DNA from: Macrosoma leucophasiata
Lineage: Eukaryota > Arthropoda > Insecta > Lepidoptera > Hedylidae
Length of the DNA stretch: 64,000 nucleotides
Direction: 5' to 3'
Assembly: GCA_036365455.1 (NCBI GenBank)
Contig: JAWQUS010000022.1
Coordinates: 4,092,001 to 4,156,000 of the forward strand
The notes under the pieces are model-generated. The model did no database searches and was not told the DNA's origin. It saw nothing but the letters and a program-made list of their open reading frames with translations. The position numbers and the translations under genes were made by a program. This document shows positions 21,673 through 63,306 of this stretch, piece after piece. The stretch's first letter is position 1; each line of letters opens with the position of its first letter.

Positions 21673-21942
21673 GCCGCGGCGGACCGGAAGGGAGTAGCTA
21701 TAGCCGCGGCGGACCGGAAGGGAGTAGCTATAGCCGCGGCGGACCGGAAGGGAGTAGCTATAGCCGCGGCGGACCGGAAGGGAGTAGCTATAGCCGCGGC
21801 GGACCGGAAGGGAGTAGCTATAGCCGCGGCGGACCGGAAGGGAGTAGCTATAGCCGCGGCGGACCGGAAGGGAGTAGCTATAGCCGCGGCGGACCGGAAG
21901 GGAGTAGCTATAGCCGCGGCGGACCGAAAGGGAGTAGCTATA
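21673..21942. repeat. 30-bp tandem repeat, nine copies
   Basis: Nine head-to-tail copies of a unit starting gccgcggcggaccggaag. Eight look identical; the last, at 21913-21942, has one change (accgaaag). Sister MITE D copies contain this segment once. The 152-codon minus-strand frame across it (repeating IATPFRSAAA) is a by-product of a 30-bp period. Confidence 0.95.
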
Positions 21943-22075
21943 GCGTTTATTACCGATGCAACAGCAGTCTTGTCATTTTTTGCGGGGGAAATACGTGTGA
22001 CACACAGACACACACTACAAAATTCTATATCGTCTATTACTACGAAACTCACACCTTGACTTTGACAAAATACAT

Positions 22076-26064: not shown

Positions 26065-26420
26065 TTTTACTAGAAATATTATATTAGATAAGTAGTTTTA
26101 CGCAAAGTTCATTGCACTTTGAAATTTTGGCTGTCCCTCAATACTGAACATCGTTTTTACTTTAGAAATTAAAGAAAAAACGGAAAGAGTAATTTGACTT
26201 CGGGCAGGAATCGAACCTGCGTCCCCAAGATAACCAACCAGTCCAGCCGCTTTACCACTAAGCTACCGAAGTCCCGTCGCGGCTGGACTGGTTATCTTGA
26301 GAACGCAGGTTCGATTCCTGCCCGAAGTCAAATTACTCTTTCCGTTTTTTCTTTAATTTCTAAAGTAAAACGATGTTCAGTATTGAGTAAAACTACTTAT
26401 CTAATATAATATTTCTATCA
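26065..26420. repeat. Long palindrome with tRNA-like heads on both arms (family F)
   Basis: The left arm holds a full minus-strand tRNA-like sequence (B box complement ggaatcgaacc at about 26208). The right arm repeats it on the plus strand, beginning at cgcggctggactgg, about 20 bases into the head. Matching continues outward through aaattaaagaaaaaacgg to tagaaatattatattaga, with one 38-bp extra segment in the left arm (about 26102-26138). The two heads point away from each other. Confidence 0.8.
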
Positions 26421-32763: not shown

Positions 32764-33202
32764 GCCCTGTAATTTCCGGCACACAGGCATAACACCTTAG
32801 GCCTCAGGAGTGGTCTTTGTGTGGGTGTCTATAGGCTGCAGTCATAGAGCAACACCGGAGGGGAGTAACCATATGCAGGCTTTCCCTTCTGTCAAAGCAC
32901 AGGCCCAAATGGGCCTATACCTGCCGCCTAGATGTTTAAATGTGTGCGTGAAATTGTTTCTGTATTTTGTTAAAAGTCAAGGTGTGCGTTTCGTAGTAAA
33001 AGACGATTTTTGTAGTGTGCGTGTGTGTCGCACGCATTTCCCCCCGCAAAAAATGACAGACTGTTTTGCATCGGTAATACACGCTATGGCTACTCCTCTC
33101 CGGTCCGCCGCGACCGGTGGGCCGCGTTGCTCTATGGCCTGCAGTCATCACTTAAGATCAGTGTGAACTACATGCTTGTTTGCCACTTTTATCTATAAAA
33201 AA
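32764..33202 (+). repeat. SINE A split by a hAT-like MITE D
   Basis: SINE A runs to ggctgcagt at 32842 and resumes at cctgcagtcatcactta after 33137. The repeated CTGCAGT block is the target duplication. Confidence 0.75.
32843..33137 (+). mobile_element. hAT-like MITE D
   Basis: Ends CATAGAGCAACACCGGAG and GTTGCTCTATG. Flanking 8-mers GCTGCAGT and CCTGCAGT agree at 7 of 8 bases. Confidence 0.8.
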
Positions 33203-38300: not shown

Positions 38301-41300
38301 TTGACTTATCAGTGGAACATGTTGCGGAAATATCTTGTGTTGAGCTGGAGAAGCATATAATAGTGTGCGTTTACAGACCACCAAATTACGAGTACCAAAA
38401 CATTAATGTATTTGACTCCACTACGGAGGATGTATTGAAAAAAGCTTGTTCTAGTAAAAAATCTGTTATTGTATGTGGAGATTTCAATTAATATTTATTA
38501 ATATTTTGGAAAATAGCTATAATAGTTGTAGACTATTGAATCTTTTTATGTCGTTCAATCTAAGTAATGTTTTTTTGGAACCCACTCGAGTGAGTCCAAC
38601 CTCAGCAACTTGTATTGATAATATATTTTGTGATCTTAAATATTTAGATAAAAATATTGTTAACTGCATGCCTTCGGGTCATAGCGGGCAAATAATGACT
38701 TTTGCCACTGCTAATAGTAAAAATATAACACAAAAAACATACAGACAAATAACTTCTGCTAAATTAAACTATTTTAATGACATGTTAATTAAAGAGTTAT
38801 ATTCCCAAAAGTTTGATTAAAATAGTGCAAATAATTGTTATGAGCAAATTTTAAGGTACTTAATACACAATTTAATAAAACATTTAAAATTAAAACTAAA
38901 TCTACCAAATATAAATTTAGTTTCTGTGATTGGGCTACAACTGGCATTCGTAAAAGTAGGGAGAGATTATTCGAATTATATGGCCTTAAGAATTGTATGC
39001 AAAATGAAAAAACTTAATAAATATATCGCTACATATTCAAAAATTTTCAAAAATGTGTGTCAAAAGGCAAAGTCTATATATTTGAGTAGGAAAATAATAA
39101 ATGCAGACTATAAGATGAAGGCTACGTGGAAAGTAATAAATAGTGAAGCAGGTAAAAATAAACGGAGTGATGGTCGCGTGATTTTGGAGACATCTCAGGG
39201 TACTGTGAGTTCGAATCCTGACATTGCGCAGCATTTTGTAGAATACTTTGCTAATATTCCCTTTGATATTACAAAACCCTTAAACTCATCCTCTTTATTA
39301 TCCATTGATATTCTGAAAAATAACGTAGAAGCTTGTACTATTCAATTTAGGTTTAAACATGTTAGCCCACAGTCTGTAAGTTCAGCTTTTCATCAACTTA
39401 AAATAAAAGCTACCGAAGATATTTATGGCATGTCTGTTATGGTGTGTAAGTTGATTATAGATACCTTAGCTCCTTACTTAGCATCCATTTTTAACTTATG
39501 TATTGATCAGGGAGTCTTTCCAGATTTATTAAAGTTTAGTAAAGTTATACCGTTATTTAAATCAGGTGACAATAAAAACCCTAATAATTATAGACCGGTA
39601 TCTATTCTGCCCGTTCTCAGTAAAGTGTTCGAAAAACTGATGCTTACTCAATTGTTGCAACATTTCAATACAAATAACATCTTACACGAACAGCAATTTG
39701 GTATTACAAAAGGACGTTGTACAACCGATGCCGATGTTGCTTTATTAAAACATATTTTTGAAGCTTGGGAGGATTCACAAGATGCTATAAGGCGTTTGAC
39801 TGCGTGGACCACAATACATTAATTGGCAAACTTGATCATTATGGACTTGAAAATAAAGCTCTTCAACTTGTTCAATCTTACCCTAAGAATCGGGAACAAG
39901 TAGTTCAAGTGAATGGAGTAAAATCTCAAGGTGCAAAGACAGGAATGGGTGTCCCACAGGGCTCAATATTAGGACCATTTCTGTTTTTAGTCTACGTTAA
40001 TGATTTACTTCATTTGATGCCTAACAGTATGCCCAAAACAATTTTATTTGCAGACGATACTTCAATAGTTTTTAAAATGAACAGACGAAATTCAGATTAC
40101 GATACTGTAAATAAGGTAGAGGAGAAGTACATAAATGGTTTACTTGTTTTATATTATTTCGCATTAACACATGCTTGTGAAATATATTTTATTTTAAAGT
40201 AAAATGGAAAGAAAAATTTGACTTCAGGCGAGACTCGAACTCGCGGCCTACTGGGAATCTAGTCCAGCCGCTCTTCCAATTGAGCTACTGAAGTCCTGCC
40301 CGATTTGTCAAGTCTTTCCTTCACATTTGTTGCATTGCTTTATGGTAGCAGCAGCGCCATCTATTGCCAACTATGCTAGTTAGGCAGCCATCTATTGCCA
40401 ACTATGCTAGAAGAGCGGCTGGACTAGATACCCAGTAGGCCGCGAGTTCGAGTCTCGCCTGAAGTCAAATTTTTCTTTCCATTTTACTTTAAAATAAAAT
40501 GGTTTACTGTCAATAATCTTGCACTGAATAGTAAAAAAACCAAATGTATCCGTTTTACCCTCCCTAATGTAAAAAGTAAAGAAGGAGACATTCTTATAAA
40601 CAATAACAAAATTCAATTTGTTGATGACGCTACCTTCTTGGGAATAACGCTTGACTCGAAGTTACAATGGGGACCACTTATTAGGCAGTTAGCGAAACGT
40701 CTGAGTGCCGCAGCTTATGCTGTTCGAAAAATTAGGCAATTAACTGATATAGACACAGCAAGACTTGTTTATTTTAGCTATTTTCACAGTGTCATGTCCT
40801 ATGGTATTTTATGGTGGGGTCGAGCGGCTGACATACAATCAATTTTTGTATTACAGAAGAGGGCCATTAGAGCGATGTATAACTTACGTAGTCGTGATTA
40901 TTTGAAAGAACTATTTAAAGAAATAAATATAATGACAGTCCCTTGCCATTACATCTATGAAAATATACTTTTCGCGAGGAAAAATTTACATCTATTTGAT
41001 AAAATCTCCGATAGGCATAATTATAATACGAGGAATAAGAACAAGTTGTCTCTGCCAAGTTTTCGACTGGCGAAAACTAATACATCTTTCCAAAAAAATA
41101 TAGTGTAGAATTTTATAACAAGATCCCATCCGGGATTGCTGAACTCACCGATGGTAAATTCAAAGCATTACTTAAACGCACTCTATGTAAAAAGGCTTAC
41201 TATAAACTCGAGGACTATCTCAAGGATAGAAATGTTTGGCTAAATGCTGATCTAGCTCCACAAGGGTGTTAAATGTAATAATCAAAGTGTAACGTTGATA

Positions 41301-50300: not shown

Positions 50301-53300
50301 ACACTTTGCCATAATTCCATACAAACGCTTAATTCGGTTTCTATTACACAGACATCAATCAGTGATGTGTATTTATACGCGCACCTGTGTGCGTAGCACG
50401 TACAAAATACCAACCGTCGCCCGTAAGAGGGGAAGGGGTTGAGTGATGCGGGCAAATCCGCACGTCGAAGTGTCCATTCTATACGTAGTATTATAACATA
50501 TTCTCTGCTTACTGGGTCTGATATTCGTTTGTCACCAAATAGCTTCCAGTTGAAAATCAGCGTCGGGCTTCGGCCTGACTTATGCTGAACTGGAATCTAT
50601 TTGGTGCAGCCGTGAGACGCTGTTCATTTTTTTTTTTTTTTTTATGTAATTGAAGTGGCAAACAAGCATGCAGTTCACATTGATGTTAAGTGATGACTGC
50701 AGCCTATAGACACCTACACAAAGACCAAGGTCAAAATGCAAATGCGTTACCACTCCTGAGGCCTAAGGTGTTATGCCTCTGTGCCGGAAATTACAGGGCC
50801 GTACATTACCACCTGACCGGAACACGATAGCGCTGAACACTACCATTTAGCGGCAAGTATATTAGGTAATGCGGTGGTGCCTACAACCACGAGCTCCGTC
50901 ACTGGAGCTCTACCACCAGTAAAAAACATCATTAACGGAGGTATTGTGTATATATGCAAGTAATTTAATTTGTCAATTGTTATATGTTTTAAAATTCTTT
51001 ATTTTCTCTCTCTTTTTTGTTTAATAGCCTGTAATAAGCATGTCTCGCAACTGCGCTGATAAAGGATTATTTCTTCTTTCTTATTTCACCCGAAAGACGT
51101 CTACTGCTGGACAAAGGTCTACCCCAAAGACGAAGAAAGGTGACCTTGGCGCGCCACCGCCTGTAGAAATTATTGTCAAAATTGTTATTTATATCTCTTT
51201 TAAGCCCGTGTCAAATAGCTAGCGAACCGAAAGCGTGGCAAAGCGTTTGTATGGTATTGTTTGAATCAATCAATAAAATATACTTTGCCGCTAAATGGTA
51301 GTGTTCAGCACTATCGTGTTCCGGTCAGGTGGTAATGTACGGTCCTGTAATTTCCGGCACAGAAGCATAACACCTTAGGCCTTAGGAGAGGTAACGCATC
51401 TGCATTTTGACCTTGGTCTTGCTGCATGTGGGTGTCTATAGGCTGCAGTCATCACTTAACATCAATGTAAACTGCATGCTTGTTTGCCACTTCTATTACA
51501 TAAAAAAACCATCTTCCAGGCGACGACGAGCACAACCGCTGCCACTTCCCCTCGTGGATCGTGGAGCACCACAAGTGGTTCAGTCTTGACCACACGCACC
51601 AGTATCATTTTACCACAAAAAATGCTACACTCAAGGTACTGTTTTCTTTACTTAAAACGTGTATACTTCTTCATCTAAACTTGTTTTTAATATGATATGG
51701 TTTTAGGTTTTCGCGAGCTACACTCATTGAATTATTATTATATATTATATATTATTTGACGACCCGGTTAGTCCAGCGGTGCGAAACCACCGCTTGATTC
51801 GTGTCCGCGGTCACGGGTTCGATCCCCACACGGAACAAATATTTGTATGGCTCACAGATATTTGCTTCGGGTCTGGGTGTTTGTGTATGTATGTGTTGTA
51901 TACATGTGCACAAGGGCATCCACGCCACAGGTTTATATAATACCTAATGTGGAGCTGTGAGTGTAAGCGTAATAAAAAAATGCCTATTTTAATTAATAGC
52001 TGTTTAAAAACTAAAAAAAAAACGGTTTTTACGGTTTTTTTCTCGCGTATATTAAACTAAATTGTTTTCAATATTTAAGTATAATACTAAATCATTAAAC
52101 TGCCTCAGTAGTATAGTAGTGGTAGGCCGCTTCTATAACGCTGGGGTCCTGGGTTCGATTCATTGGTCGGGCTGTCAGGGGTAACGGTATGAAAACGTTT
52201 ATCTCTGGTTCTATTGGGATTTTTCAATTTTCTGGAAGTTTCCTAGTACCTCGGAGCTAATTTACCCGGAGATGTCAACAAACTGGTCACGTAACACTTA
52301 TTCACACACAACGTGACACTTTTGCGTGGGGCCTGTTTCATCGAATCGCAAGCCGTTATCACGTCTAAAACCATTCGCCAATATTATCAGCAGTTATTCA
52401 TAATGTATAGTTTGTAATATCTTAACAATTTCAAAATACATTAAGATTTATTCAAATTTCATTACATTTTATTTCTTTCATCTCTCCATAAAATCGAGTT
52501 TTGGGTTCCTTGTTGTGACCCTACTATTCTTTGTGCTAGTGATTTAATTATTTAATTAATGAATAGTTGTGTCTATTTGTGAGACACAAAACGAAGATAC
52601 AACTTTTGTAGATGGGCTTGGTAGAAAATGATGCAGCAGGTTTAAGTGAATAACGTGTAATGCGTCAAAAAACAGAAAAAAAGATCGGTTTTATAACATT
52701 TAAAAATTGCACTGAAAGACGGCCGCCATTGGTCAATTTCGTGCCGTCGTGACCGATAGCAGCTCTTATTGGCCCGCAGCACTCCGATGGCTCAGGATTG
52801 GCTAATATACAGAAACATCTGACGTAGTGCGTGAACATTCTCCCGGCCTTGGAAGCTGCAGCTTTCAAATAATTTGGATGTAGGTATGTCGCAGGCACAT
52901 CATATAGGTATAGTTATGTAATCTAATCGTTACTACTCCTCAATCAGTAACGGACATATTTTTGAAAAGGCTCTCCGAATTATTCCCTTGTTGGTCTTGA
53001 TGTCAGCTACGCGCGAAATTCCATCTTTGCCAGGGTAAGTTTTGATGATACGGCCCAAACTCCACTTCAGCGGTGGCAGATTATCGTCTTTGATTAGAAC
53101 CATGGTGTCGTCTGTAAGTGTGTCTTGGTTCGTCGTCCATTTGCACCGCGTCTGAAGCTCCGACACGTACTCGGTTGACCAACGTCTCCAGAAATGTTGG
53201 CGCAGCTGTTCGACCCTCTGGTAGTGAGTCAATCGGTGTACAGGAACGTCCTCGAGATCTTTGAGGACAGGCGCAGTCAGTGGACGGCCAACCAGGAAAT

Positions 53301-56300
53301 ATGCGGGAGATAGGGGTAGGAAGTCTGTAGGATCGGTAGACAAGGGGCTTAATGGTCGGGAATTCAGGATTGCTTCTACTTGTGCCAATACTGTACTGAA
53401 TTCTTCAAATGTAACATGTGCGTTACCCACTACACGAACCAAGTGATATTTACAGCTTTTAATTCCTGCCTCCCACAAGCCACCACAATGACTAGCGTAA
53501 GGCGGTATCATTGAAAATTTGATATTTTGCGATAATGCATAATCAGTAATATTTTTACAAGAAGAGGAAAGAAATTTAGCGAATTCATTTTTAAGACCGA
53601 CGAAATTCTTTCCGTTATTGGAGAAAATTTCTAAAGGTTTTCCACGACGCGATATAAATCTTTTTAAAGCTAGCAAGTATGCATCCGATGAGAGATCACT
53701 AACCAACTCAATGTGAACAGCGCGAGTTGTGAAACATATAAATAAACAAATGTACGCGTTTACAGTTCTGGCGCCTCTCCCCTTGTGCCTCAATATGAAC
53801 ACAGGCCCCGCATAATCAACTCCGCATCGCATAAAAGGAAACCCTGGGTCTAAACGTTCTTTAGGTAGATTTCCCAATATTGGTTTCAAAACCTTACCTC
53901 GCATCCGTGTGCAAGTGACGCAACTGTGTACTACCTTCTTGGCTAGATTTCTGCCACCAACGGCCACCAGGTGTCCCTTATGATAAATAGGAGTAGCTGC
54001 GGTGGAGCGTGCAGTAACTGCTTGTGTTCATATTGAAACAACAATTCTGTAAAACGATGTTTAGAATAAATTAAAATAGGATGCTTTTTACAATATTCAA
54101 AATGTGATGTTTCAAAGTGTGATGTTTTAGCGAGTAACAATATAGATTCATTCAGTTCATCCGAATTAAGCGAATTATTACGTTTGTCGGTTTTATTGTG
54201 TGCATCATGTATAAAACGCAGTACATAAGCAAAGCTTCGCGTCAATCTATTGAACTGGGAGAATCTTAAAAACGGAAACAATGACGATGACTCATTTCCC
54301 GAACATTATTTTGTTATCAGTGTGTTAATATTAATATTTTTTATTTTAAGTAAATTTTCAATTGATGACAATTCTGTGTGTTAAATAAATTGAAAGCGTT
54401 TTTTTTCCTTTTATACCTACTGTTTCCTTTAGTAACGTATCATATACGTGCGGGAAAGATTCCCTTTGTGATATTCTAGCGAGTAACAATATAAATTCAT
54501 TCAGTTCATCCGAATTAAGCGAATCAGTGCGTTTGTCGGTTTTATTGCGTGCATCATGTATAAAACGCAGTACATAAGCAAAGCTTCGCGTCAATCGATT
54601 GAACTGAGAGAATCTTACAAACGGAAACAATGACGATGACTCATTGCCCGACATTATTTTGTTATCAATGTGTTAATATTAATATTTTTTATTTTAGGTA
54701 AATTTTCAATTGATGACAATTCTGTGTGTTCGTTATAATAAGTATTATTCATCATATCAATCGAAAAATGTCCGCTGATGGACCAAAGCCTCCCCATAAG
54801 GGGGAATGTGCCATAACTGCCACGCTTGGCATGTGTATTGGTGATCGCAGTGGCGGTAGTTTTATCGCAGGACGCTGCTGCCCATCTTGCGTTATTGCAC
54901 TTACTACCGCCCTATTGGAATGGTTTGACCGCCATTGTTCGGTTGACTGACTGCACTAGTGGAAGAATTCTCTTTCAGTAGAAGAAAATTCTTCCGCTAG
55001 TGGGCGGTGGGGTCGTCACATCCCGACGCCTATAATCATCATCGTCATTATTACACCATCCTAACCTAAAGTCCTAAATGATACATTTCATCTAGTGACA
55101 AGTTTTTGCATAATACCTAAAATGTTTACTTTGGGTATACAATTAAATTATAAACCCATTTGTGCAATAGAAAACAGCCTGATTTTAAAACGTTGGTAAG
55201 TTCATGACATACCTTTGTGAGGGCGTTAATGTCTGAAGATCCTAGTATGACGTCATCGACATAACAGTCCTCACGGATAACTCGTGCTACCTCATCGCTA
55301 GTACATTCACAAGCCAGCTGTTTCAGACATCTACAACTTAAAAATGGCGCTGACGCGGTACCATAAGTGACCGTGTTTAATTGATAAATACCTAAAGCGT
55401 CACATGGGTTCTCACGCCACAATATTAGTTGCAGATCTCGCTGGTTTTCATCCACTAGTACCTGTCTGTACATTTTTTCCACGTCGGCGCACGCTACATA
55501 CCTATTCTCGCGGAACCTAAGTAAAATAGCAATCAAATCTCCTTGAATTGGCGGTCCTATCATTTGTAAACTATTTAATGATCTTCCGTTACTGGAGCGT
55601 GCGCTGGCGTCAAAAACAACCCTAAGTTTAGTGGTAGTAGCGTGTTCACGAAATACGCCGTGATGAGGCATGAAATAATACGGCTTTCCGTAGGTATCAA
55701 CGCGAGTCATGTGACCTAAAGCTATGTATTCATTAATGAATTCTGAATATAATTTTTTGTACTCAGGATTACGTTGCAATCGTTTTTCTAATGCAAAAAA
55801 CCTATTTTGAGCCTGAGGGAACGATTCTGCTAAAACATCGGGAGATTCTTTGAATGGAATTTGTACACAGAATCTTCCGTCAGCAACACGACGAGTAGTT
55901 TGCTCGAAATGATTTTCACACGCACGTTCTTCGTCGGTAATCGAATTTGTCTGTGAACTAATCGAACCCTCTTCTAGTTCCCAAAAACTACGCAGCAACG
56001 CATCCATAGCTTCAGGTTCAATAGATTGCGAAAAATTACAACGGACTTGTTTCATCTGACGTGTTGAATAGATCGGGCCTGATAATATCCATCCAAGTTT
56101 TGTATTCAATAAATACGGACCATTTGATAAACGTAATCGACCTTCTATTATGAGGTCCCAAAATAAATCCGCGCCTATGAGTAAGTCAATAGGTTGCGAC
56201 TCGTTAAAACTTGGATCAGCTAATTTAATGTACTCAGGTATTAGAAAGTTATTTCTTTTAACAGAAATGTGTGGCATATTTAGAGTAATTTGCGGCAATA

Positions 56301-59300
56301 TTATACAAGTAATGCGTGTTTTAAAATCAGCGATAGTGGAATGTATTTCTATATCACACATTTGCGAACTTTGTGTGACAGAGTTCCCTACGCCGCGTAT
56401 TTGAAAAGTGGACTGTATGTTGCGCGTGTTAAGTTTGTCGCTTAAATTTTGTGTTATAAAACACCGTTCGCTTCCGTTGTCTAATATTGCGCGCGCTTTA
56501 ACAAATTTACCTACATCGTCGATAATCTCAACAATTGCAGTTGACAACAGAACGTGCGAAACCGGTGACAACTGAGCGTCTAAGTTGTCCGTGTGTGCAC
56601 TATTTACGTTATAGGTAGATAGTGCTAGTGTGCCTTGTTTGTTTTCATTACTATCAACGATGGCGAGAGAACCGGTTTTGTTGCATGTTTTATTTAATGA
56701 TAACAATGCAGTTGTGTGCTTACTTACCGAATTCTCCTCAACGTTATCACCGTCGTAATGAATTAGCGAATTGTGCTTTTTCTCGCATTTCCGACATGGT
56801 CCGAATCGACATTCCCGAGATGTATGACCTACATTGAAACAGTTTTCGCATAACCCTTTATCACGTACCAATTTTAATCTCTTCTGTGCGCTTAAATCAA
56901 GAAATAGTTGACACGAATATAATGGGTGTTTTCCATTGCACATAGGACACAATCTATTTGAAAAAGTAGATTTCGAATAACCGGAATTATTTTTTGATTT
57001 ATTGTTATTATTCGTAACAATATTGCAGTGAATCTTAGTATCACTCTGTGATGAATTGTATCGCTTAGAACTGTGTGAATTACCTTTACTGTGTGTCAAA
57101 ATAAGTGTTTCTAACATTTCTGCCCTACCTCTTAGAAAGTCTAATAAAGTATTCACAGTAGGCGAAGATACTGAGTCACCACTTTTATTATGAGTGCCAG
57201 CTTGTCCCGATAGTGTTAATTTAAATTGTTCCCATTCTCGTTCAGTGGTCGAATCTAATTTTGATACGATTAAATAAATAAGCAAGGTGTCCCAGTGCTC
57301 TGTGGGTTCACCGAGGGATTTTAATGCGCGTATGTTTTTTAATACTGTATCAATAAGCCTTCGTAATAAAACCGGTGACTCATTAGATAACGACTGCATC
57401 GAAAACAAAGCCTTTACATGGTTATGTATCAATAATTTATTATTGTTATATCTATTTAATAATAGCTCCCATGCAACACAATAATTGGAAGACGAAAATT
57501 CGAGAGAATCTATTACCATTAGTGCATTGCCCGATAGTGATGATTTTAAATAGTGAAATTTTTGTATGCTAGTTAAATCGTGCGTATTATGGATGAGTGA
57601 CACGAATGTATCGCGAAACTCAAGCCATTGATCGCAGGCACCATTAAACGAAGGTAACGTAATAGTAGGTAATTTCACTGACTGTGTTATACTACGCATT
57701 GTTCCCCGAGCTTGATCAGATCCCTCATCGGAGACCGCCAAGCTTTGAGCTTCAGCCAAAATACAATAATATTCGTTCTCAAAATCCTCTCTTATTTGAA
57801 GTTGATTTTCTATATCGCTATCCGAAATAAAACGTTCTATACGATCTTGAACGTCGTTGAATTCGCTAAATAGACTTTCGAATCCTTTAATGCGTAATTT
57901 TAATTCGGCATTATGCGAAGTAAAAATAGACCGGCCATCTTTACAAGACTGATTAGTCGTTAAGTATTTTTTAAAATTTGTAAGCCTCCCTTTTATTACA
58001 CCGCGACGTTTATTAAGCTCACGAATATCACTATTACTGATCTTTGCGTCTACACTAGTCATCTTGGCACTTAATAGAAAGAAAAATACTCACAGTTAAC
58101 AGGTGGAGATTAATTACGTAGATACTTAGCTTTACTTAGCTTCCATAAAACCTCGGTTCCGTTTAGCGGGCACACATATACAATTTTATTAATCGATAGG
58201 CAATATGCTGAAATTAACTGAAATATGCACAAATACAGTATTAACACAAAGTAAAAGTGGGAAAGGTTTGGGAATGGAATGGCTGACACGTTTCACCTAA
58301 TGCGCGCTGGCTGCTGCTTCAATCGCCCGTGATTTCTTGTATATACCTCCGTCGATTGCTTATTTCTTCAACTTTCGGCTCGAATGACCAATTTATGTCT
58401 ATTTGTGAGACACAAAACGAAGATACAACTTTTGTAGATGGGCTTGGTAGAAAATGATGCAGCAGGTTTAAGTGAATAACGTGTAATGCGTCAAAAAACA
58501 GAAAAAAGATCGGTTTTATAACATTTAAAAATTGCACTGAAAGACGGCCGCCATTGGTCAATTTCGTGCCGTCGTGACCGATAGCAGCTCTTATTGGCCC
58601 GCAGCACTCCGATGGCTCAGGATTGGCTAATATACAGAAACATCTGACGTAGTGCGTGAACAAGTTGCTTCAACGAATTGTACGTAATAAAATAAAAGAA
58701 AAATGTTATAGCGCCACCTCAATTACAGGTGCATGCGTAAACCACAAAAACCAGCAAACAAAAAATTATTCTAAAGATTTCCATTTCCAAGCATTTCCAT
58801 AATTAAAAACATGCAACATTTTAACATTTTTTGATAATAATTGAAACACTTTATAAACCATACATAGATTGTCTTACGAAAACTTATATGATTCCAGATA
58901 ATGAATGCCGACCGGACGTTCGAGGAGAAGCGGCTGGTGTGCCACTCCATACTGGAACAGAAAGACAAGAAATACATCAAATTAGTGGCGCACGTCACTA
59001 GAGGATGGTGAGTTTGATTGAATAATTTGTTATTCTGATAACAATGTCTCAGCCAGAGGCGGCTCTTGACGTTTTTTAGTGGAAATTCCCAAAAAAATGC
59101 ATACCTAATTCTTTTCTCATTCAATTTTAAATATTTATTTAAAAGAAAAACTGCAAAATAACTGATGAATCCATCACGTTTGTTTGTATACCTACATAAA
59201 ACGGCAAAAGCAACACAGCGTATGATTCCCGCGCACTTGCGGGCGCCGCGGTTCGGCAATGTCACGTGATCACGTGTGAGCGGCGCTCCGCATTAGGCTA

Positions 59301-62300
59301 ATTTCACATACAAGATGTTCTGTTTCACGCGCCGGCCTGTGTCGATGTTTCCCTTTCGCACTCATTGAATACAGAGCCAGGAATTGTACCAAACTCTGGT
59401 TGTATTGGAACTTTAACATTTTCTGGAACAAATATTTTGATGCAACCGAACCTAAATGTTTACGCAATTGTCGACAGTGAGTCGGGCCACGTGTGCCTGT
59501 CGTTCTACCGGCGCGAGGGCAACGTGCTGGAGCTGCAGCAGGGCGCGCTGTGGGACGCGCCACACGACGCCTGCGTCACCCCCGCCCAGCCGCCGCCCTA
59601 CGTCACCCTCATCGGTCAGTACCCCTCTCCCCGGCCGCACAGGGCGCGCTGTGGGACGCGCCGCACGACGCCTGCGTCACCCCCGCCCAGCCGCCGCCCT
59701 ACGTCACCCTCATCGGTCAGTACCCCTCCCCCCGGCCGCACAGGGCGCGCTGTGGGACGCGCCGCACGACGCCTGCGTCACCCCCGCCCAGCCGCCGCCC
59801 TACGTCACCCTCATCGGTCAGTACCCCTCCCCCCGGCCGCACAGGGCGCGCTGTGGGACGCGCCGCACGACGCCTGCGTCACCCCCGCCCAGCCGCCGCC
59901 CTACGTCACCCTCATCGGTCAGTACCCCTCCCCCCGGCCGCACAGGACGCGCTGTGGGACGCGCCGCACGACGCCTGCGTCACCCCCGCCCAGCCGCCGC
60001 CCTACGTCACCCTCATCGGTCAGTACCCCTCACCCCGGCCGCACAGGACGCGCTGTGGGACGCGCCGCACGACGCCTGCGTCACCCCCGCCCAGCCGCCG
60101 CCCTACGTCACCCTCATCGGTCAATATCCTTCCCCCCGACCGCACACCCTCATTTAGGGTACAGACATTAAACTTAAAAGGGACAGAGAAATTCGACTCT
60201 CGGATATGGGACTAGTAGCTTAGTGGTGAAGTGGCTGGACTGGTTATCCTGAGGTCGCAGGTTCGATCCTTACCCGAAGTCAATTTTTCATTACATTATT
60301 AAACCTTGCCTATTTAAGTGTATTTATATATTGTATGATTAATGTTTACAGCGACGTCGCTGGTGCCGATGAGATGTCCTGTGATCGGACGGTACTCGGT
60401 GGTGAACACGCAGTCCGAGAGAAGGAAGAAGCGCCAACAGGCCACTATAGGTATGTCGAGTGTTTAATTACTAACATCACCCAATGTTTGAAAGAATTAT
60501 AACATATATTTATTTTAAAAGATACATGGCCGTCGGTCCTGTACTCGATCTCTCTCCGGTCGTGTCGGATTCCCGTCCCATCGGGCTACGAGAGTGAGGG
60601 TGAGGGAATAGAGAGTGCACCTGTGTTAGCGCATACACTTGTGCACTATAATATCTCCCGCGCAGTTGGCTAGTCTCCGTTGAGATTGGCCGCCGTGACC
60701 GAAATTCGGTCTGGAGGACATTATTATTATTAGACATTCTCTGAGCGCGTGTTGTCGGTTGTCGGCATAGACGAACACCGGAGGTGTTTAATTGTTTAAT
60801 ATGTCCACTAGATGGCGTTGTACTTTTCGTAGTATATGGTAAATGACGGTGTAGGAGTAGCCATATGCAGGCTTTCTCCTCTGTCAAATTTCAAGTCCAA
60901 ATGGGCCCATACCTGTCGCCTAGATGTTTAAATGGGTGCGTGAAGTTGTTTCTGTATTTTGTTAAAGTCAAGGTGTTTTGTAGTAATAGATGATTTTTGT
61001 AGTGTGCGTGTGTGTCGCACGCATTTCCCTCCGCAAGAAATGACAGAGTGTTTTGCATCGGTAATACACGCTATGGCTACTGTCCTCGGGTCCGCCGCGG
61101 CCGGTGGGCCGAGTTGCTCTATGCTCGGAGAGCACGTAAAGCAATCGTTCATGCGCCCGATCTCTCTCCGGTCGTGTCGGATAACTGTCCCATCGGGCTA
61201 CGAGAGTGAGGGTGAGGGAATAGAGAGTGCACCTGTGTTCGCGCATACACTTGTGCACTATAATATCTCCCGCGCAGTTGGCTAGCCTCCGTTGAGATTG
61301 GCCGCCGTGACCGAAATTCGGTCTGGACGACATTATTATTATTAGACATTCTCTGAGCGCGTGTGGTTGTGTTGTCGGCGCAGGGTCGGAGGCGGAGGCG
61401 GAGGCGGAGGCGGAGGCGGCGGGCGGGGCGGCGGCGCCGGCGTGCGAGTGGCGCCGGCGCGAGCGGTACGAGCGCGCCAGCGTCGGCTGCGGCGCCGCGC
61501 AGGACTACATCGACTTCAAGTCCGAGTGCGCCAACACCGGTCGGTGCCTCTTTGTGTAATTTATTAACAGCTCCGTTGGAGTTTTGGCGGGGAAACTTGA
61601 AAGAAGCGTGCGGTGCTCTTATTTTATTTAATTTTCTTGGTGTATTTTTAAGTTATATTGAATAAAGTCGGTGACATTTTGTTTTATATAGGTTTATTAC
61701 AGTGCCCGAGTTTTACTTAGCACTGGCAATATGCGTAATGCGATGCCACAATTTCTAAAAGTCGCACCGTACGGCGGCGACTTTATGTGTGAGACTCACA
61801 GACGGCCCTACGACTTTACTATGAGCAAAGTATGCTTAGAACTGTCAGTACAGTATGGGATTTAGTATGTTCTTAGGTTTTCGCGAGCTACACTCGTTGA
61901 AATAAAACTAGTTTTCGGATTTATCTCGCGTACATAAAACTAAAATGATTATTTAAAATCGAACGCGACGTTTCGGTCGCTTTTCAGCTTCCGTGGTCTC
62001 GGGCAGACTGAGGTGGTATTTGTCTGACAGCAGTTTGAAAAATTATTATGTGCAGCTACCTCCATCTATTGACAGTTCGAAGCATACTTTGATCACAGTA
62101 AAGTAGTGCGGTCTGTGAATCTCCCCATAAGGCTATATTTCTGAATCCACTGCGGCCACTACTAGAGGTGATGTTAGTACAGTGTACTGCGAAGCCGTTC
62201 CGTTTTATTAGACAACACTGTTTACTACTGTTCACTGTTTAACAACGGAACGCCCTATCCAATATACTGGATGGATGCACGATTATACATTTCTTAAGTT

Positions 62301-63306
62301 GCTTTCTTTTTATATAAAATATAGGTATACCACCCTGCAATAAAAACAATATCTACGAATTTCCCATTTTTAGGGTTCCGTAGTAAACAAGGAACCCTTA
62401 TAGTTTCGCCATGTCCGTCTGTCTGACTGTCTGTCCGTCCGCGGTTTAGCGCAAAAACTGTTAGTACTAGAGACTTGAAATTTGGCACAAGTATACACCT
62501 TAATCACGCCCGATAGAATAAAATTGTGAAAAAAAAATATTTTTAGGTTCAGGGTAACGTGCGGATATTTTTTTAATTTTCGATTTTCATATAGTGTGTG
62601 GTATCGTTGGATAGGTCTTTTATAAATGTTATGGGTATACGAATATCATTTTTCGATTTAGTAAACTGTTCGTGACTTATTAAGCTTTAAAGTGCAAATT
62701 TTCGTTAGACTCAAGTGCCCCCCCCCTACAGACTAAACGGTTGCTGTTAGAAATTCAAACGTTACGGCAATAGTAGCTACATAATATATAACGAAATTAA
62801 AAGGAAAACTATCACACTAAAGTTGGCTTTGCAAGTTTGCGAGTTATAGTCGACCAAATGTATTTTACTATTACGCTGGAGGTCCTGGGTTCGATTCCCG
62901 GGTCGGGGGATATTAGAGATAACGGTTTAAAATCCTTTATCTCTGCTTCTATCGGGATTTTTCCATTTGCTGGAAGTTTCCCAGTACCCCGGAGTTTGGT
63001 AATGTGCCCGGAGATGGCAACAGGTTCGCCATCTGTTACATGGGCCAGAACGTAACCGGCGAGTCGTGGGTGTTTACATGTATGATTGAATGCATGCATT
63101 TACCTCTGCCTACCCCTTCGGGGATTACAGGCGTGAAGTAACGTTTTTATTATAAATAACATGTTATGTGGTGTGTGCGGCAGTGTACACGTGCTACGGC
63201 AGCTGGGCGGAGGGCGGGCGCGGGTACCTGATCGCGGCGCCCACCGCGCGCGCCTCGTCCCACCCCCCCACCTTCTGCTTCATCTACACGCGCACCACGC
63301 ACAACG
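35187..63306 (+). CDS. Cysteine-rich secreted or ectodomain protein, insect uncharacterised family (12 internal exons, partial)
   Basis: Coding exons: 35187-35334, 44313-44380, 45950-46097, 47653-47765, 48827-48941, 50102-50229, 51520-51635, 58898-59007, 59478-59614, 60352-60450, 61384-61539, 63184-63306. Every intron is GT-AG and every split codon joins in frame, giving 487 codons with no stop. Three related cysteine modules are visible: GCTFPAEWTGSWFQSG, then CPF..PFTFTYNR, then LVCLATWKEGSTRYLVG and the later YTCYGSWAEGGRGYLIAAP, which look like repeated folds. I know the pattern from conserved uncharacterised insect proteins and recall the DUF7042-7045 domains, unverified. Both ends are missing; a membrane anchor cannot be judged. 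Introns range from 0.27 kb to 9 kb and are filled with transposons. The function is unknown. Confidence 0.85.
35668..36027 (-). repeat. SINE C with 12-bp target duplication
   Basis: Flanked by tctctttggtta on both sides (35655-35666 and 36031-36042, approximately). On the minus strand it runs from the 5S-like head at the right to an (ATT)n tail at the left. The long A/T-containing duplication and the tail show retrotransposition. Confidence 0.8.
36055..36628 (-). mobile_element. MITE E
   Basis: Ends AAAGGAGATGTTGC and its complement, inverted relative to the copies at 8049 and 22076. It shares with them the block gccgccatgttgaa. Confidence 0.8.
36655..36815 (+). repeat. SINE A 3' half, also present at 35575-35650
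   Basis: Both pieces carry the same altered block agactgcaattatcactta and the same following motif tctctttggtt, so they derive from one locus duplicated before the SINE C and MITE E insertions. Confidence 0.6.
36860..37958 (+). pseudogene. LINE ORF1 remnant (esterase-like region)
   Basis: The first part has heptad-like YNAERYESLTTKYL text. At 37230-37436 the frame reads MLFCDKLGSGFGPLLKDHLN and SVIILFGNSLGL, resembling the SGNH/esterase-like domain of CR1-group ORF1 proteins. After a broken stretch, 37557-37958 carries VIHTLSCRHSDKLLYFDTNK. At least two frame changes separate the parts. Confidence 0.6.
38024..38820 (+). pseudogene. LINE apurinic-type endonuclease domain
   Basis: Motifs in order: HQNIQGWE, IICLSEHWL (catalytic Glu), GGTLIMIKN, VCVYRPPN and IVCGDFN. 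Then a stop and frame change at about 38491, followed by VFLEPTRVSPTSATCIDNIF and PSGHSGQIM. The final box is normally S-D-H; here it reads S-G-H, so a catalytic Asp is lost as well. Confidence 0.8.
38926..40142 (+). pseudogene. LINE reverse transcriptase domain
   Basis: The 298-codon frame contains VIPLFKSGDNKNPNNYRPVS and LSKVFEKLM (RT motifs 0-1) and QQFGITKGRCTTDADVALLK. A small deletion and frame change near 39770-39790 leads into AFDCVDHNTL (motif A), MGVPQGSILGPFLFLVYVND (motif B) and LFADDTSIV (motif C, catalytic FADD). Catalytic residues are intact, but the frame is not. Confidence 0.85.
40145..40496. mobile_element. tRNA-like foldback SINE inserted in the LINE
   Basis: 352 bp flanked by the 12-bp duplication aaatggtttact (40133-40144 and 40497-40508). 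Two arms of about 90 bp (40186-40275 and 40411-40500) each hold a tRNA-like head pointing outward. The head has a 7-bp acceptor match (ACTTCAG/CTGAAGT) and T arm GCGAG-TTCGAGT-CTCGC. The right arm starts inside the D loop. The spacer holds gccatctattgccaactatg twice. Confidence 0.8.
40500..41272 (+). pseudogene. LINE pol C-terminal region
   Basis: WFTVNNLALNSKKTKCIRFT opens the part after the foldback insertion. The 156-codon frame at 40638-41108 has FLGITLDSKLQWGPLIRQLA, LSYGILWWGRA-like text and VLQKRAIRAMYNLRSRDYLK. A frameshift in an A run near 41095 precedes the last part (FYNKIP to a stop at 41270-41272). Confidence 0.85.
42208..42310 (-). pseudogene. LINE pol terminal fragment
   Basis: The reverse complement of the 5105-5345 family end: ggggtaggcagagagtatag and agatattccggtcac. 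Nothing else is recognised between 41720 and 42700 apart from a repeat K fragment near 41975-42060 that includes a near-perfect inverted repeat of ctcacaaa at 42046-42080. Confidence 0.5.
42727..42961. mobile_element. 235-bp TIR element (MITE G)
   Basis: Inverted ends: AAAGGACTTATTACACGGCA on the left and the complement of AAAAGGCGTATTACACGACA on the right, about 30 bp long. The related half-element lies at 22834-22965. Confidence 0.75.
42970..43775. other. Intron sequence, nothing recognised
   Basis: AT-rich apart from a GC-rich pocket at 43550-43600 (ggcgcgggcgtcgcg) that belongs to no repeat I know. Short open frames are not called. Confidence 0.4.
43776..43983 (-). mobile_element. 208-bp Helitron
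   Basis: On the minus strand it starts TCCCTACTTCCCTACTATTA and ends GCGAAGCCGCGGGCAACAGC followed by TAG, inserted between A and T. The termini match the 1370-bp element at 30006-31375, so it is a deletion derivative of the same family. Confidence 0.75.
44009..44268 (-). repeat. SINE A
   Basis: From tatgtaatggaagtggcaga to ctctaccaccagta, ending about 45 bp before the exon at 44313. Confidence 0.75.
44313..44380 (+). CDS. Short exon, CYRCMVIHEKH
   Basis: 68 nt. Completes Arg, then SYDCYRCMVIHEKHKYVLQY with two conserved cysteines. The donor is GTAAGT. Confidence 0.85.
44665..44954 (-). repeat. SINE A, full length
   Basis: From a T run and atgtaattgaagtggc to gagctctaccaca. A half-palindrome relative of 18205-18400 precedes it at 44425-44480. 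Confidence 0.75.
45660..45905 (+). repeat. Repeat related to the 18205-18400 palindrome
   Basis: Shares cgtcgatgcgcatgtttgtg and tttctacactgttcatattt. Its left half, with gacgtcgaagtgtccattct, also occurs at 50460-50500. It ends about 45 bp before the exon at 45950. Confidence 0.55.
45950..46097 (+). CDS. Exon ending the first module, starting CPF...FTFTYNR
   Basis: 148 nt. TYCREKDSISSICDEISGDA, then PLYSMFRKEP and CPFHPPPFTFTYN before a split Arg. It was the clearest family match for the second domain. Confidence 0.85.
46118..46398 (-). mobile_element. Helitron-like element
   Basis: Begins TCTATACTAATAAATAAAAT on the minus strand and ends near gctgtgtccgcaacttcgtc. It sits about 20 bp after the exon ending at 46097. 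Confidence 0.55.
46711..46759. repeat. Perfect 22-bp hairpin
   Basis: Arms starting gtaggtgttcttcacgcc are perfect complements around the 5-base loop GTGTT. The surrounding 46430-46850 is GC-rich and repeat-like but not identified. Confidence 0.85.
46850..47491. mobile_element. Foldback element related to 24509-25700
   Basis: Inverted ends starting gcgaccgcctatcgac with the shared inner block tgacagcaataac / gtcattgctgtca. The interior includes gtttattacagtgcccg, which also occurs at 61690-61710. Confidence 0.65.
47653..47765 (+). CDS. Exon with SRLLLRYMACPDVPGTE
   Basis: 113 nt. GSGDCTYPPSRAESCTDDSR, then LLLRYMACPDVPGTES. The donor GTGACA is weak at +5, but the phase and the continuation into VEELVCLATW are exact. 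Confidence 0.8.
47790..47977. mobile_element. LINE tail scrap and MITE copy
   Basis: 47770-47815 has the microsatellite atcatcatcat and acgtccactgttggacaa, a LINE 3' end. From 47828, cccccttattcataaacg starts a second copy of the MITE at 8569-8714 with a decayed right end. Confidence 0.6.
48160..48480 (+). repeat. Family H repeat with SINE C scrap
   Basis: ccacaatcgccacgcttagc, cattgttcgattgactgact and attctcccgctggtgggg are family H blocks. A SINE C tail piece interrupts it at about 48358-48420. Confidence 0.55.
48827..48941 (+). CDS. Exon with LVCLATWKEGSTRYLVG
   Basis: 115 nt. VEELVCLATWKEGSTRYLVG, then SDEDTYR. Strong acceptor (tttcttgtttctag) and donor GTGAGG. Confidence 0.9.
49075..49250 (-). 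repeat. Repeat K fragment
   Basis: gtttagcgcaaaaactgtt and gagacttgaaatttagcaca match repeat K, followed by its outer terminal motif gcacttgaccgg. Confidence 0.6.
49263..50065 (-). repeat. SINE B interrupted by SINE A and a hAT-like MITE D
   Basis: The SINE B body is 49263-49540. SINE A (49554-49718, plus) breaks the head, which resumes as cctgctacctctagactact. MITE D (49757-50049) then sits between perfect 8-bp copies of ACTGAGGC (49749-49756 and 50050-50057), the second belonging to the rest of the SINE B head. Insertion order: B, then A and D. Confidence 0.8.
49757..50049 (+). mobile_element. hAT-like MITE D, best-preserved copy
   Basis: Ends CATAGAGCAACACGGGCC and GTTGCTCTATG, perfect 8-bp target duplication ACTGAGGC. 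Contains one copy of the 30-bp segment that is repeated nine times at 21673-21942. Confidence 0.85.
50102..50229 (+). CDS. Exon with IIAQSGDATCNGLSSP
   Basis: 128 nt. CFIYKGQHSDKSMTYIIAQS, then GDATCNGLSSPTDGSRTMKL. The acceptor lies only about 50 bp after the end of a hAT-like MITE (50049). The donor is GTGAGT. Confidence 0.9.
50633..50921 (-). repeat. SINE A, full length
   Basis: From a long T run (tail) to gctctaccaccagta. Little diverged from the copy at 44665-44954. Confidence 0.8.
51283..51508 (+). repeat. SINE A lacking its first 60 bp
   Basis: From ctttgccgctaaatggtagt to acataaaaaaacc, immediately before the acceptor of the exon at 51520. 51097-51130 carries a LINE tail phrase ctactgctggacaaagg. 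Confidence 0.75.
51520..51635 (+). CDS. Exon with CHFPSWIVEHHKWFSLD
   Basis: 116 nt, ending on a codon boundary (ATLK). CHFPSWIVEHHKWFSLDHTH is conserved in the family. A SINE A ends about 10 bp before the acceptor; its A-rich tail is followed by ccatcttccag. Confidence 0.9.
51762..52015 (+). repeat. tRNA-headed SINE
   Basis: A-box-like ttagtccagcgg and B box GGTTCGATCC at about 51819-51828, then a body with cagatatttgcttcgg and gtgtaagcgt and an A-rich end. Body fragment also at 462-585. Confidence 0.7.
52099..52300 (+). repeat. SINE B, diverged
   Basis: actgcctcagtagtatagta and B box GGTTCGATTC, followed by the family body with gtttcctagtacctcgg. Confidence 0.65.
52570..52837 (-). repeat. 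3' LTR of the BEL/Pao element
   Basis: 268 bp, TG...CA ends on the minus strand. Apparently identical to the 5' LTR apart from one base in an A run. Confidence 0.93.
52933..53967 (-). pseudogene. BEL/Pao integrase core and C-terminus with catalytic change
   Basis: 344 codons. The frame opens within the zinc-binding region (HSCVTCTRMRGK). The core has DYAGP (catalytic Asp at 51) and GLWEAGIKSCK (catalytic Glu at 166). At the second catalytic position the sequence reads SNNGKNF, with Asn at 117 where the family has Asp. The C-terminal domain (LKWSLGRIIKTYPGKDGISR) and stop are intact. It is one frameshift away from the upstream integrase N-terminus at 53943-54281, so it could not be made as part of a normal polyprotein. 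Confidence 0.9.
53943..54281 (-). pseudogene. BEL/Pao integrase N-terminal piece
   Basis: 112 codons. SFAYVLRFIHDAHNKTDKR is the linker typically found before integrase, and YEHKQLLHAPPQLLLFIIRD is the start of the zinc-binding domain. It runs out of frame at about 53950, next to the integrase core frame. Confidence 0.8.
54140..54735 (-). repeat. Duplicated 240-bp segment inside the BEL/Pao element
   Basis: 54143-54381 and 54500-54731 are direct copies with roughly 5% difference, sharing gtttgtcggttttattg, gtataaaacgcagtacataa and ttgatgacaattctgtgtg. The right copy encodes the same linker residues (SFAYVLRFIHDARNKTDKR). The difference contrasts with the near-identical LTRs. Confidence 0.8.
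54756..55035 (+). repeat. Family H repeat inside the BEL/Pao element
   Basis: tccgctgatggaccaaagcc to cccgacgcctataatcatc, with a (ATC)n tail. It lies where RT C-terminal and RNase H sequence should be, so it is a nested LINE-type insertion accompanied by loss of BEL sequence. Confidence 0.65.
55126..58062 (-). pseudogene. BEL/Pao Gag-Pol polyprotein, truncated in RT
   Basis: 978 codons. Residues about 130-320 match the DUF1759 gag region (LPTITLPSFNG...WLEFRDTF). Residues 372-424 hold two CCHC-like zinc fingers (CPMCNGKHPLYSC; CENCFNVGHTSREC). Residues 526-640 are the aspartic protease with DNGS at 528-531, usual for BEL (DUF1758). RT starts near 790, with VVFDAS at 815, the motif A Asp at 860 (ADVEKMYRQV) and YVDD at 934-937. 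The frame ends at LIVYPK, just past the palm, where a family H repeat and a deletion remove the thumb, connection and RNase H. Full BEL proteins run well over 1500 residues. Start ATG chosen as the first, about 330 bp inside the 5' LTR. Confidence 0.9.
58396..58662 (-). repeat. 5' LTR of the BEL/Pao element
   Basis: 267 bp. On the minus strand it runs TGTTCACGCACTACGTC to CACAAATAGACA. Against the other LTR I see only one difference, a shorter A run (6 against 7 A). Confidence 0.93.
58898..59007 (+). CDS. Exon with LVCHSILEQKDKKYIKLVAH
   Basis: 110 nt. IMNADRTFEEKRLVCHSILE, then KLVAHVTRG and TG of a Cys codon completed in the next exon. It follows the BEL/Pao insertion. Confidence 0.85.
59478..59614 (+). 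CDS. Exon whose 3' part is tandemly repeated downstream
   Basis: 137 nt. CESGHVCLSFYRREGNVLEL, then GALWDAPHDACVTPAQPPPY and VTLI. The donor GTCAGT at 59615 joins in phase to 60352, giving VTLIATSLVPMRCPVIGRY, which fits the family. The last 73 nt plus 28 nt of intron form the unit of the 101-bp array. Confidence 0.85.
59542..60147 (+). repeat. 101-bp tandem array spanning an exon end and its donor
   Basis: Six units start with ggcgcgctgtggg (or gacgcgctgtggg) at 59542, 59643, 59744, 59845, 59946 and 60047, an exact 101-bp period. Each holds the last 73 nt of the exon at 59478 and 28 nt of intron (GTCAGT...CCGCACAG). Units are nearly identical; the last ends GTCAAT and then diverges into unique intron. 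All three plus frames are open across the array because 101 is not a multiple of 3 and no stops occur. Confidence 0.95.
60207..60285 (+). repeat. tRNA-like SINE head (family F)
   Basis: tagcttagtggtgaagtggc (A box region) and ggttcgatcc (B box) followed by acccgaagtc. The T arm is mismatched, so a functional tRNA is unlikely. Confidence 0.6.
60352..60450 (+). CDS. Exon with MRCPVIGRYSVV and a basic stretch
   Basis: 99 nt. ATSLVPMRCPVIGRYSVVNT, then QSERRKKRQQATI. The run RRKKR resembles a furin-type cleavage site. The donor is GTATGT. Confidence 0.85.
60525..61375. repeat. Intronic direct duplication split by MITE D, reaching a splice acceptor
   Basis: 60546-60763 and 61156-61375 are near-identical (gatctctctccggtcgtgtc to agacattctctgagcgcgtg), including sequence beyond the (ATT)n tail of the repeat they contain. 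MITE D (60764-61122) lies between them. The second copy ends at the acceptor of the exon at 61384; the first copy ends at a comparable ggttgtcggcatag. Confidence 0.8.
60764..61122 (+). mobile_element. hAT-like MITE D with a 68-bp internal insertion
   Basis: Ends CATAGACGAACACCGGAGG and GTTGCTCTATG. About 68 bp (60783-60850) interrupt the left end relative to sister copies. No clear 8-bp target duplication. Confidence 0.7.
61384..61539 (+). CDS. Exon with Ala-Glu repeat and VGCGAAQDYIDFKSEC
   Basis: 156 nt. Five GAGGCG hexamers encode alternating Glu-Ala, followed by Gly/Ala-rich codons, then CEWRRRERYERASVGCGAAQ and DYIDFKSECANT. The acceptor (ttgtcggcgcag) has a poor pyrimidine tract because a duplicated intronic block abuts it. 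The donor is GTCGGT. Confidence 0.8.
61793..62128. mobile_element. Larger relative of the 34332-34469 MITE
   Basis: Left actcacagacggccctacga and right agtgcggtctgtgaatctcc are the same terminal family, with the inner blocks agaactgtcag and ctgacag-like text. The middle contains ttttcgcgagctacactcgt, a repeat phrase also at 27765 and 51710. Confidence 0.55.
62372..62870 (-). repeat. Interspersed repeat K, inverted partner of 1095-1602
   Basis: Colinear with 1095-1602 in reverse complement over about 500 bp, with a matching run of nine C near 62721. Confidence 0.75.
62876..63143 (+). repeat. SINE B lacking the A-box part of its head
   Basis: Begins ggaggtcctgggttcgattc (B box) and runs through the full body to the tail ggggattacaggcgtgaag. 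It ends about 40 bp before the exon at 63184. Confidence 0.75.
63184..63306 (+). CDS. Exon with YTCYGSWAEGGRGYLIAAP
   Basis: 123 nt. VYTCYGSWAEGGRGYLIAAP, then FCFIYTRTTHN. The donor is GTAACA. The gene continues beyond the window, since the codon is split and no stop has been reached. Confidence 0.85.

Follow-up and report, generated by a model that had tools for sequence, protein, structure and literature searches.

A 101-bp tandem array repeats an exon end and its splice donor in a gene of Macrosoma leucophasiata

Introduction

Going by its title, a 1995 paper by Turri et al. reportedly described a minisatellite of the human gene IFI6 (G1P3, 6-16) that supplies splice donors, and a title of Zhuo et al. 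from 2007 is likewise said to concern human alternatively spliced introns from tandem arrays. Copy number of minisatellites varies between individuals. Another account of IFI6 states that two repeat units further downstream act as donors and that three mRNAs result (PMC4526556). Other papers hold that, in human paralogs, internal tandem repeats at exon-intron boundaries can alter splicing via novel introns (PMC2812944), and that introns have been gained through tandem duplication in Drosophila (PMC2891723) and in the potato RdRp gene (PMC4974935). The potato duplication crosses an intron-exon boundary, and the same paper describes a model of intron gain based on a duplicated AGGT proto-splice site, from which the potato case itself departs (PMC4974935). 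Here we analyse a 64,000-nucleotide stretch from the hedylid Macrosoma leucophasiata (assembly GCA_036365455.1, contig JAWQUS010000022.1, positions 4,092,001 to 4,156,000), hereafter the window, in which six tandem copies of a 101-bp unit, each holding the end of a coding exon together with its splice donor, span an exon-intron boundary. From the letters of the array and the proteins of relatives, we consider it likely that this is a boundary minisatellite whose first donor is used and whose other donors are intronic spares; that the array grew by tandem duplication with unequal exchange, and that donor 1 is preferred, is what we infer.

Results

Tandem Repeats Finder places the array at 59539-60146 of the window (period 101, 6.0 copies, 98% matches, 0% indels, score 1153), and direct comparison of the units sets it at 59542-60147, with six tandem units of 101 bp each. 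Every unit comprises the final 73 nt of a coding exon followed by 28 nt of intron, the GT donor included, the boundary being taken from a hand-made gene model and from the proteins of 120 relatives. A first-pass annotation, made from the letters of the window, had described the same six exact units, the same duplication of an exon end together with its donor and the same donor positions, all of which stand:

Unit 1: 59542..59642, + strand; 73-nt exon end and 28-nt intron start, donor GTCAGT at 59615
Unit 2: 59643..59743, + strand; donor GTCAGT at 59716
Unit 3: 59744..59844, + strand; identical to unit 2, donor GTCAGT at 59817
Unit 4: 59845..59945, + strand; identical to unit 2, donor GTCAGT at 59918, the sole later donor in frame with 60352 (+303 nt)
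Unit 5: 59946..60046, + strand; 2 differences from unit 2, donor GTCAGT at 60019
Unit 6: 60047..60147, + strand; donor GTCAAT at 60120, with weaker U1 pairing; continues into unique intron

The GT stands at the same place in 6/6 units, as GTCAGT in 5/6 and as GTCAAT in unit 6, whose altered donor and passage into unique intron had also been recognized correctly. GTCAAT may be the original donor, which the first-pass annotation took to be probable, or a decayed one. Units 2, 3 and 4 are identical over 303 bp; compared with them, unit 1 carries 2 differences (unit positions 21 and 87), unit 5 also 2 (positions 2 and 87) and unit 6 carries 6 (positions 2, 78, 81, 84, 93 and 101, the last being the final base, which adjoins the unique flank), so that the array holds four unit types: unit 1, units 2-4, unit 5 and unit 6. 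Each of the five internal unit boundaries reads CACAG/G (the slash marks the junction). The array coincides with a GC-rich island at about 59500-60150 (GC 0.764 for 59500-59999; window GC 0.396), and none of the 81 20-mers of unit 2 that were tested occurs elsewhere in the window on either strand. There is no AGGT proto-splice site in the unit, the donors reading TCG/GTCAGT.

The host gene was modelled as 12 exons on the + strand (35187-63306), picked by eye from the reading frame and GT/AG sites within the window, which join into one open frame of 486 aa. The exons around the array and the remainder of its intron are:

58898..59007, + strand: preceding coding exon of the hand-made gene model
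59478..59614, + strand: coding exon of 137 nt, its last 73 nt forming the exon portion of unit 1; codes for ...CESGHVCLSFYRREGNVLELQQGALWDAPHDACVTPAQPPPYVTLI(A)
60148..60351, + strand: remainder of the intron, GC 0.38, containing a tRNA-like stretch at about 60208-60300
60352..60450, + strand: next coding exon, encoding ATSLVPMRCPVIGRYSVVN...; acceptor GTTTACAG
61384..61539, + strand: coding exon after that, carrying a short GGAGGC repeat (SEAEAEAEAEAA)
63184..63306, + strand: final coding exon of the hand-made gene model within the window

Exon 59478-59614 terminates in TCG/GTCAGT within unit 1, and joining donor 1 (59614/59615) to the acceptor at 60352 keeps the full frame and yields ...YVTLI-A-TSLVPMRCPVIGRYSV..., which alignment with 120 relatives (those listed of 427 protein matches) identifies as the family sequence, as the first-pass annotation had proposed. 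Donor 1 is the family-correct donor, because the eight-residue length across VTLIATSL (VTLI-A-TSL) is the same in 116/120 relatives and an insert is present in 0/120; in the other four (P0037, P0040, P0095 and P0097) this part is shorter or absent. The relatives were compared as proteins, which cannot reveal arrays in their introns.

As a rough guide to splice strength, sites were scored by ViennaRNA duplexes with a U1 sequence and by small matrices built from the gene's own sites. Donors 1-5 share the same nine letters and each have a U1 duplex energy of -6.6 kcal/mol, an intermediate value here, since the gene's 11 other donors span -5.1 to -12.2, seven of them pairing better and four less well; donor 6 reaches -2.8. 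In the matrix of the 11 other donors, donors 1-5 score 8.1 and donor 6 scores 3.7, and the best of the remaining GTs that were scored across the exon and intron reaches 4.3. This equality in letters, energy and matrix score speaks for a different outcome, in which the repeated donors are used and transcripts step by 101 nt, an IFI6 situation in an insect; in human IFI6 two downstream repeat units are said to serve as donors (PMC4526556). Donor 4 would then give a full-length protein longer by 101 residues, and the transcripts from donors 2 and 5 would be truncated and probably decayed.

Each unit included adds 101 nt and the frame returns after three units, at donor 4, exactly as first annotated. 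Joined to 60352, donor 2 (+101) and donor 5 (+404) both run into a stop after RRRWCR, six codons into the 60352 exon; donor 3 (+202) and donor 6 (+505) are out of frame yet open through the last exon found (end 63306); donor 4 (+303) is in frame with 101 extra residues; and intron retention meets a stop ending at 60171. The concatemer of units has no stop in any of its three forward frames, and open reading frames of 268, 233 and 240 aa cross the array in these frames. The earlier assertion that no stop exists in any frame is therefore right within the units and wrong beyond them (60171, and donors 2 and 5), and its corollary that read-through gives long novel peptides and not truncation applies to donors 3, 4 and 6, of which donor 4 alone is in frame, and fails for donors 2 and 5. 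A homology search with the array peptide (6889 candidates) gave 0 matches, with family members likewise unmatched, and is uninformative. Large exons are less favoured under exon definition, and the later donors would yield exons of 238 to 642 nt; the junction insert is also found in 0/120 relatives, a weak objection given that those species may be without the array. On balance we regard stepwise use of the repeated donors as unlikely, though the best placed of the alternatives.

On the acceptor side, 60352 scores 11.1 in a matrix of the gene's twelve acceptors, the top of the AGs scored across 59478-60400, and the CACAG/G sites of the array score -1.4 to -1.7. These sites would matter if introns were being born within the array, with a donor joined to the CACAG/G of a later unit to give 73-nt mini-exons and 129-nt mini-introns, as is said of introns derived from tandem arrays. 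A stretch of 28 nt is below the usual minimum for a spliceosomal intron, so at least one whole unit must be skipped, which gives a 129-nt intron; every internal boundary has an AG and every unit a donor. When the gene's twelve acceptors are each left out in turn their scores range from -8.9 to 11.2, with 10/12 above the array AGs and 2/12 below (-3.6 at 59478 and -8.9 at 63184); as two of the gene's own acceptors score under the array AGs, a poor score does not equal an unusable site. Every mini-exon, however, would add 73 nt, 0/7 combinations tried restore the frame, and all three combinations with two mini-exons hit a stop. With most of the gene's acceptors also outscoring the array AGs, we judge intron birth highly improbable. 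The five extra donor/acceptor pairs of the first-pass annotation are real as CACAG/G junctions and overstated as pairs, the AGs scoring low and 28 nt from donor to neighbouring acceptor being too short.

Several observations weigh against a boundary minisatellite closed at donor 1. The top score of 60352 comes partly by construction, because that site is included in its own matrix; without it there, its score drops to 6.7 and is exceeded by the 8.1 of an AG at 60261, which sits inside the tRNA-like stretch. Intron definition would favour later donors because they lie nearer to 60352, the intron measuring 333 nt from donor 5 against 737 nt from donor 1. The 28-nt part is odd in composition: its GC is 0.71 in unit 1 (0.61 in unit 6), as compared with 0.18-0.36 in the first 28 nt after the 11 other donors of the gene and 0.38 in the remainder of the array intron, and outside the array 1.6% of 28-mers attain 0.71. 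In this part 5/5 variable sites occupy third codon positions when read in the exon's own frame, and these five variants are synonymous in that frame (GQYPSPRPH; read by hand). A simple intron origin predicts neither this composition nor the third-position pattern.

In the unit frame, 6/7 variable sites lie at multiples of 3 (random placement 0.015 for any class and 0.005 for this class), as do the 5/5 of the 28-nt part (0.0016), in tests that were picked after the pattern was seen. Selection on a read-through protein was rejected as the cause, since in a read-through from unit 1 only unit 4 regains the exon's frame and the pattern is mostly that of unit 6; it may be chance or may stem from an ancestral exon that extended beyond the present donor. 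Composition and third-position pattern together hint that the 28-nt part itself was once under coding constraint. This is one form of a more adventurous proposal, the other being that the array acts as a donor counter, with donors 1 and 4 giving two full-length proteins, donors 2 and 5 giving truncated ones and allelic copy number tuning the ratio; the 101-residue insert would then be the same unit read in three successive frames. We think this proposal improbable in either form.

The variants are also clustered in the intron part (5/27 sites vs 2/73, p 0.015), as weaker homogenisation at the edge of an array can produce. A derivation of the 28-nt part from the exon or from another place in the window was considered and dropped: no alignment to the exon scored above 2000 shuffles, nor did any to the rest of the window score above 20 shuffles. 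At 7/7 variable unit positions (101 left out), copies 2-4 have G or C and at least one of units 1, 5 and 6 has A or T, which may reflect AT-biased mutation in GC-rich DNA or be a trace of GC-biased conversion.

The probable boundary minisatellite could have arisen simply. At the unit junction, intron ...CCGCACA is joined to exon CAGGGCG..., and the 2-bp CA common to both parents is consistent with a simple tandem duplication. A 101-bp stretch, the exon's last 73 nt with the intron's first 28 nt, would first have undergone tandem duplication and later grown to six copies via unequal exchange or slippage. Unequal exchange would keep the middle units uniform and let the end units drift, and the identical units 2-4 flanked by diverged ends look as expected of a middle-homogenised array. 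The exon would still be closed by donor 1 and spliced to 60352, so that the mature protein retains the family sequence, with five later copies carried as intron and lengthening it from 232 to 737 nt; the later donor-like sites would be mostly ignored or, at most, serve as occasional alternative donors.

With mutation rates of 2.9e-9 (Heliconius) and 4.1e-9 (Bombyx) per site per generation, as given in PMC10048334, units 2 and 6, which differ at 5 of 100 sites, would lie about 6 to 9 million generations apart, and units 1 and 6, with 7 differences, about 9 to 12 million; the zero differences among units 2-4 allow up to about 2.4 to 3.4 million. These figures are rough because exchange between units and selection are ignored. 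The first-pass annotation had offered a recent expansion or an assembly effect, and the identity of the middle units fits that description where the divergence of the end units does not. Were the true allele to have fewer or more units, miscounting of identical middle copies would leave just such identity over 303 bp. The sequence as it stands rules out a locus of one unit, because four unit types are present, and these require a tandem array of some length; the diverged end units speak for an older first duplication and against pure assembly stutter. An array of 606 bp is, moreover, short relative to long reads. We therefore give an assembly effect little credence, and treat the number of identical middle copies as unproven.

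Motifs within the unit may bear on its stability. On the minus strand, 6/6 units have a G-rich motif that agrees with a quadruplex pattern in its loose form (loops up to 9) and fails the strict form (loops up to 7). Quadruplex-type motifs can favour repeat instability, and we take those of the unit as only a hint of such a cause. A relic of a seventh unit beyond 60147 was considered, the flank and the exon end having the 9-bp word CACCCTCAT in common, and is not claimed: in local alignments compared with 2000 dinucleotide shuffles, 60120-60180 had p 0.07 and 0.10 and the flank alone p 0.01, the word having been spotted before testing.

The host protein matches the Pfam families DUF7042, DUF7043 and DUF7044 above their curated cut-offs (27 each), with PF23069 at 131.9 bits, PF23070 at 92.8 and PF23071 at 88.8, the DUF7043 match covering residues 244-347 of the 486-aa protein; PF23073 (DUF7045), at 20.7 bits, is under its cut-off of 27. 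In the protein search 7991 candidates were scored and 427 had E <= 0.001. Among the matches listed, all with a species name are insects, the best being Bicyclus, Maniola and Epargyreus, with a top full-coverage identity of 81%; Maniola is 84% identical over the tree's 470 columns, and Zerene 93% identical but across only 65% of the query. None of the listed matches comes close to identity, so the species of the window is probably not among them. The host is a conserved, uncharacterised insect gene (DUF7044/7042/7043). In a tree of the window protein and 33 of the 120 relatives, the window protein falls in a 12-row group (support 87/82) with Epargyreus (Hesperiidae), Aricia (Lycaenidae) and a joint Pieridae and Nymphalidae group (90/89). 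It lies outside that joint group and outside Papilionidae, and no starred set of the tree contains it; the tree gives moderate support for placing the gene near butterflies.

The surroundings hold further repeats and elements. In the array's own intron, 60208-60300 aligns with the minus strand at about 26176-26275 (score 107 vs <=43 in 20 shuffles), where a tRNA-Gln(CTG) is predicted, which makes it a tRNA-derived stretch with no tRNA call of its own. The intron just before exon 58898-59007 contains a minus-strand retroelement region (52567-58662), presumably BEL/Pao-like, bounded by direct repeats 98-99% alike and probably a recent insertion; its open reading frame at 55126-58062 matches DUF1759 and DUF1758, with an RVT_1 match below cut-off, and that at 52933-53967 matches DUF5641. 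In the intron after the 60352 exon, two 223-nt copies (60533-60755 and 61145-61367) are 95% alike and 612 bp apart, the second stopping about 16 bp short of an exon. Another local expansion, of 9.1 copies of a 30-bp unit (99% matches), occupies 21673-21944 inside what appears by eye to be a dispersed element, with copies near 33090, 49780 and 61075 that have a single unit. A tRNA-Ser(AGA) prediction at 40219-40480, minus strand, lies inside a reverse-transcriptase-like element and is followed, by eye, by an inverted copy of much of that stretch.

Discussion

Five identical donors in near-identical context, set 101 nt apart before one acceptor, amount to a clean natural experiment on donor choice, in which use of donor 1 would point to exon definition and use of donor 5 to choice of the nearest donor. 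The locus also shows an exon boundary multiplied with the family protein still readable, which may be a step to longer introns and new isoforms. In a literature search for such arrays in Lepidoptera, none of the ten papers listed out of 79 was by title on the subject and none of the ten had the exact phrase, which is no proof of absence.

Measured against the systems described above, the locus is most like IFI6 (PMC4526556), a tandem repeat lying across an exon-intron boundary with, here, a donor in each unit. It differs in gene and host, and its donor use is predicted from sequence. The human paralog cases are segmental duplications with transcript support, whereas here the old intron stays (PMC2812944). 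With the Drosophila and potato cases the array shares tandem duplication of gene sequence with its splice signals; there a new intron arose, whereas here the copies sit in an intron that has its own acceptor, and the unit is without AGGT (PMC2891723, PMC4974935). By anatomy, then, the array is a further case of IFI6-type repeats, unusually regular in its layout and ordinary in kind.
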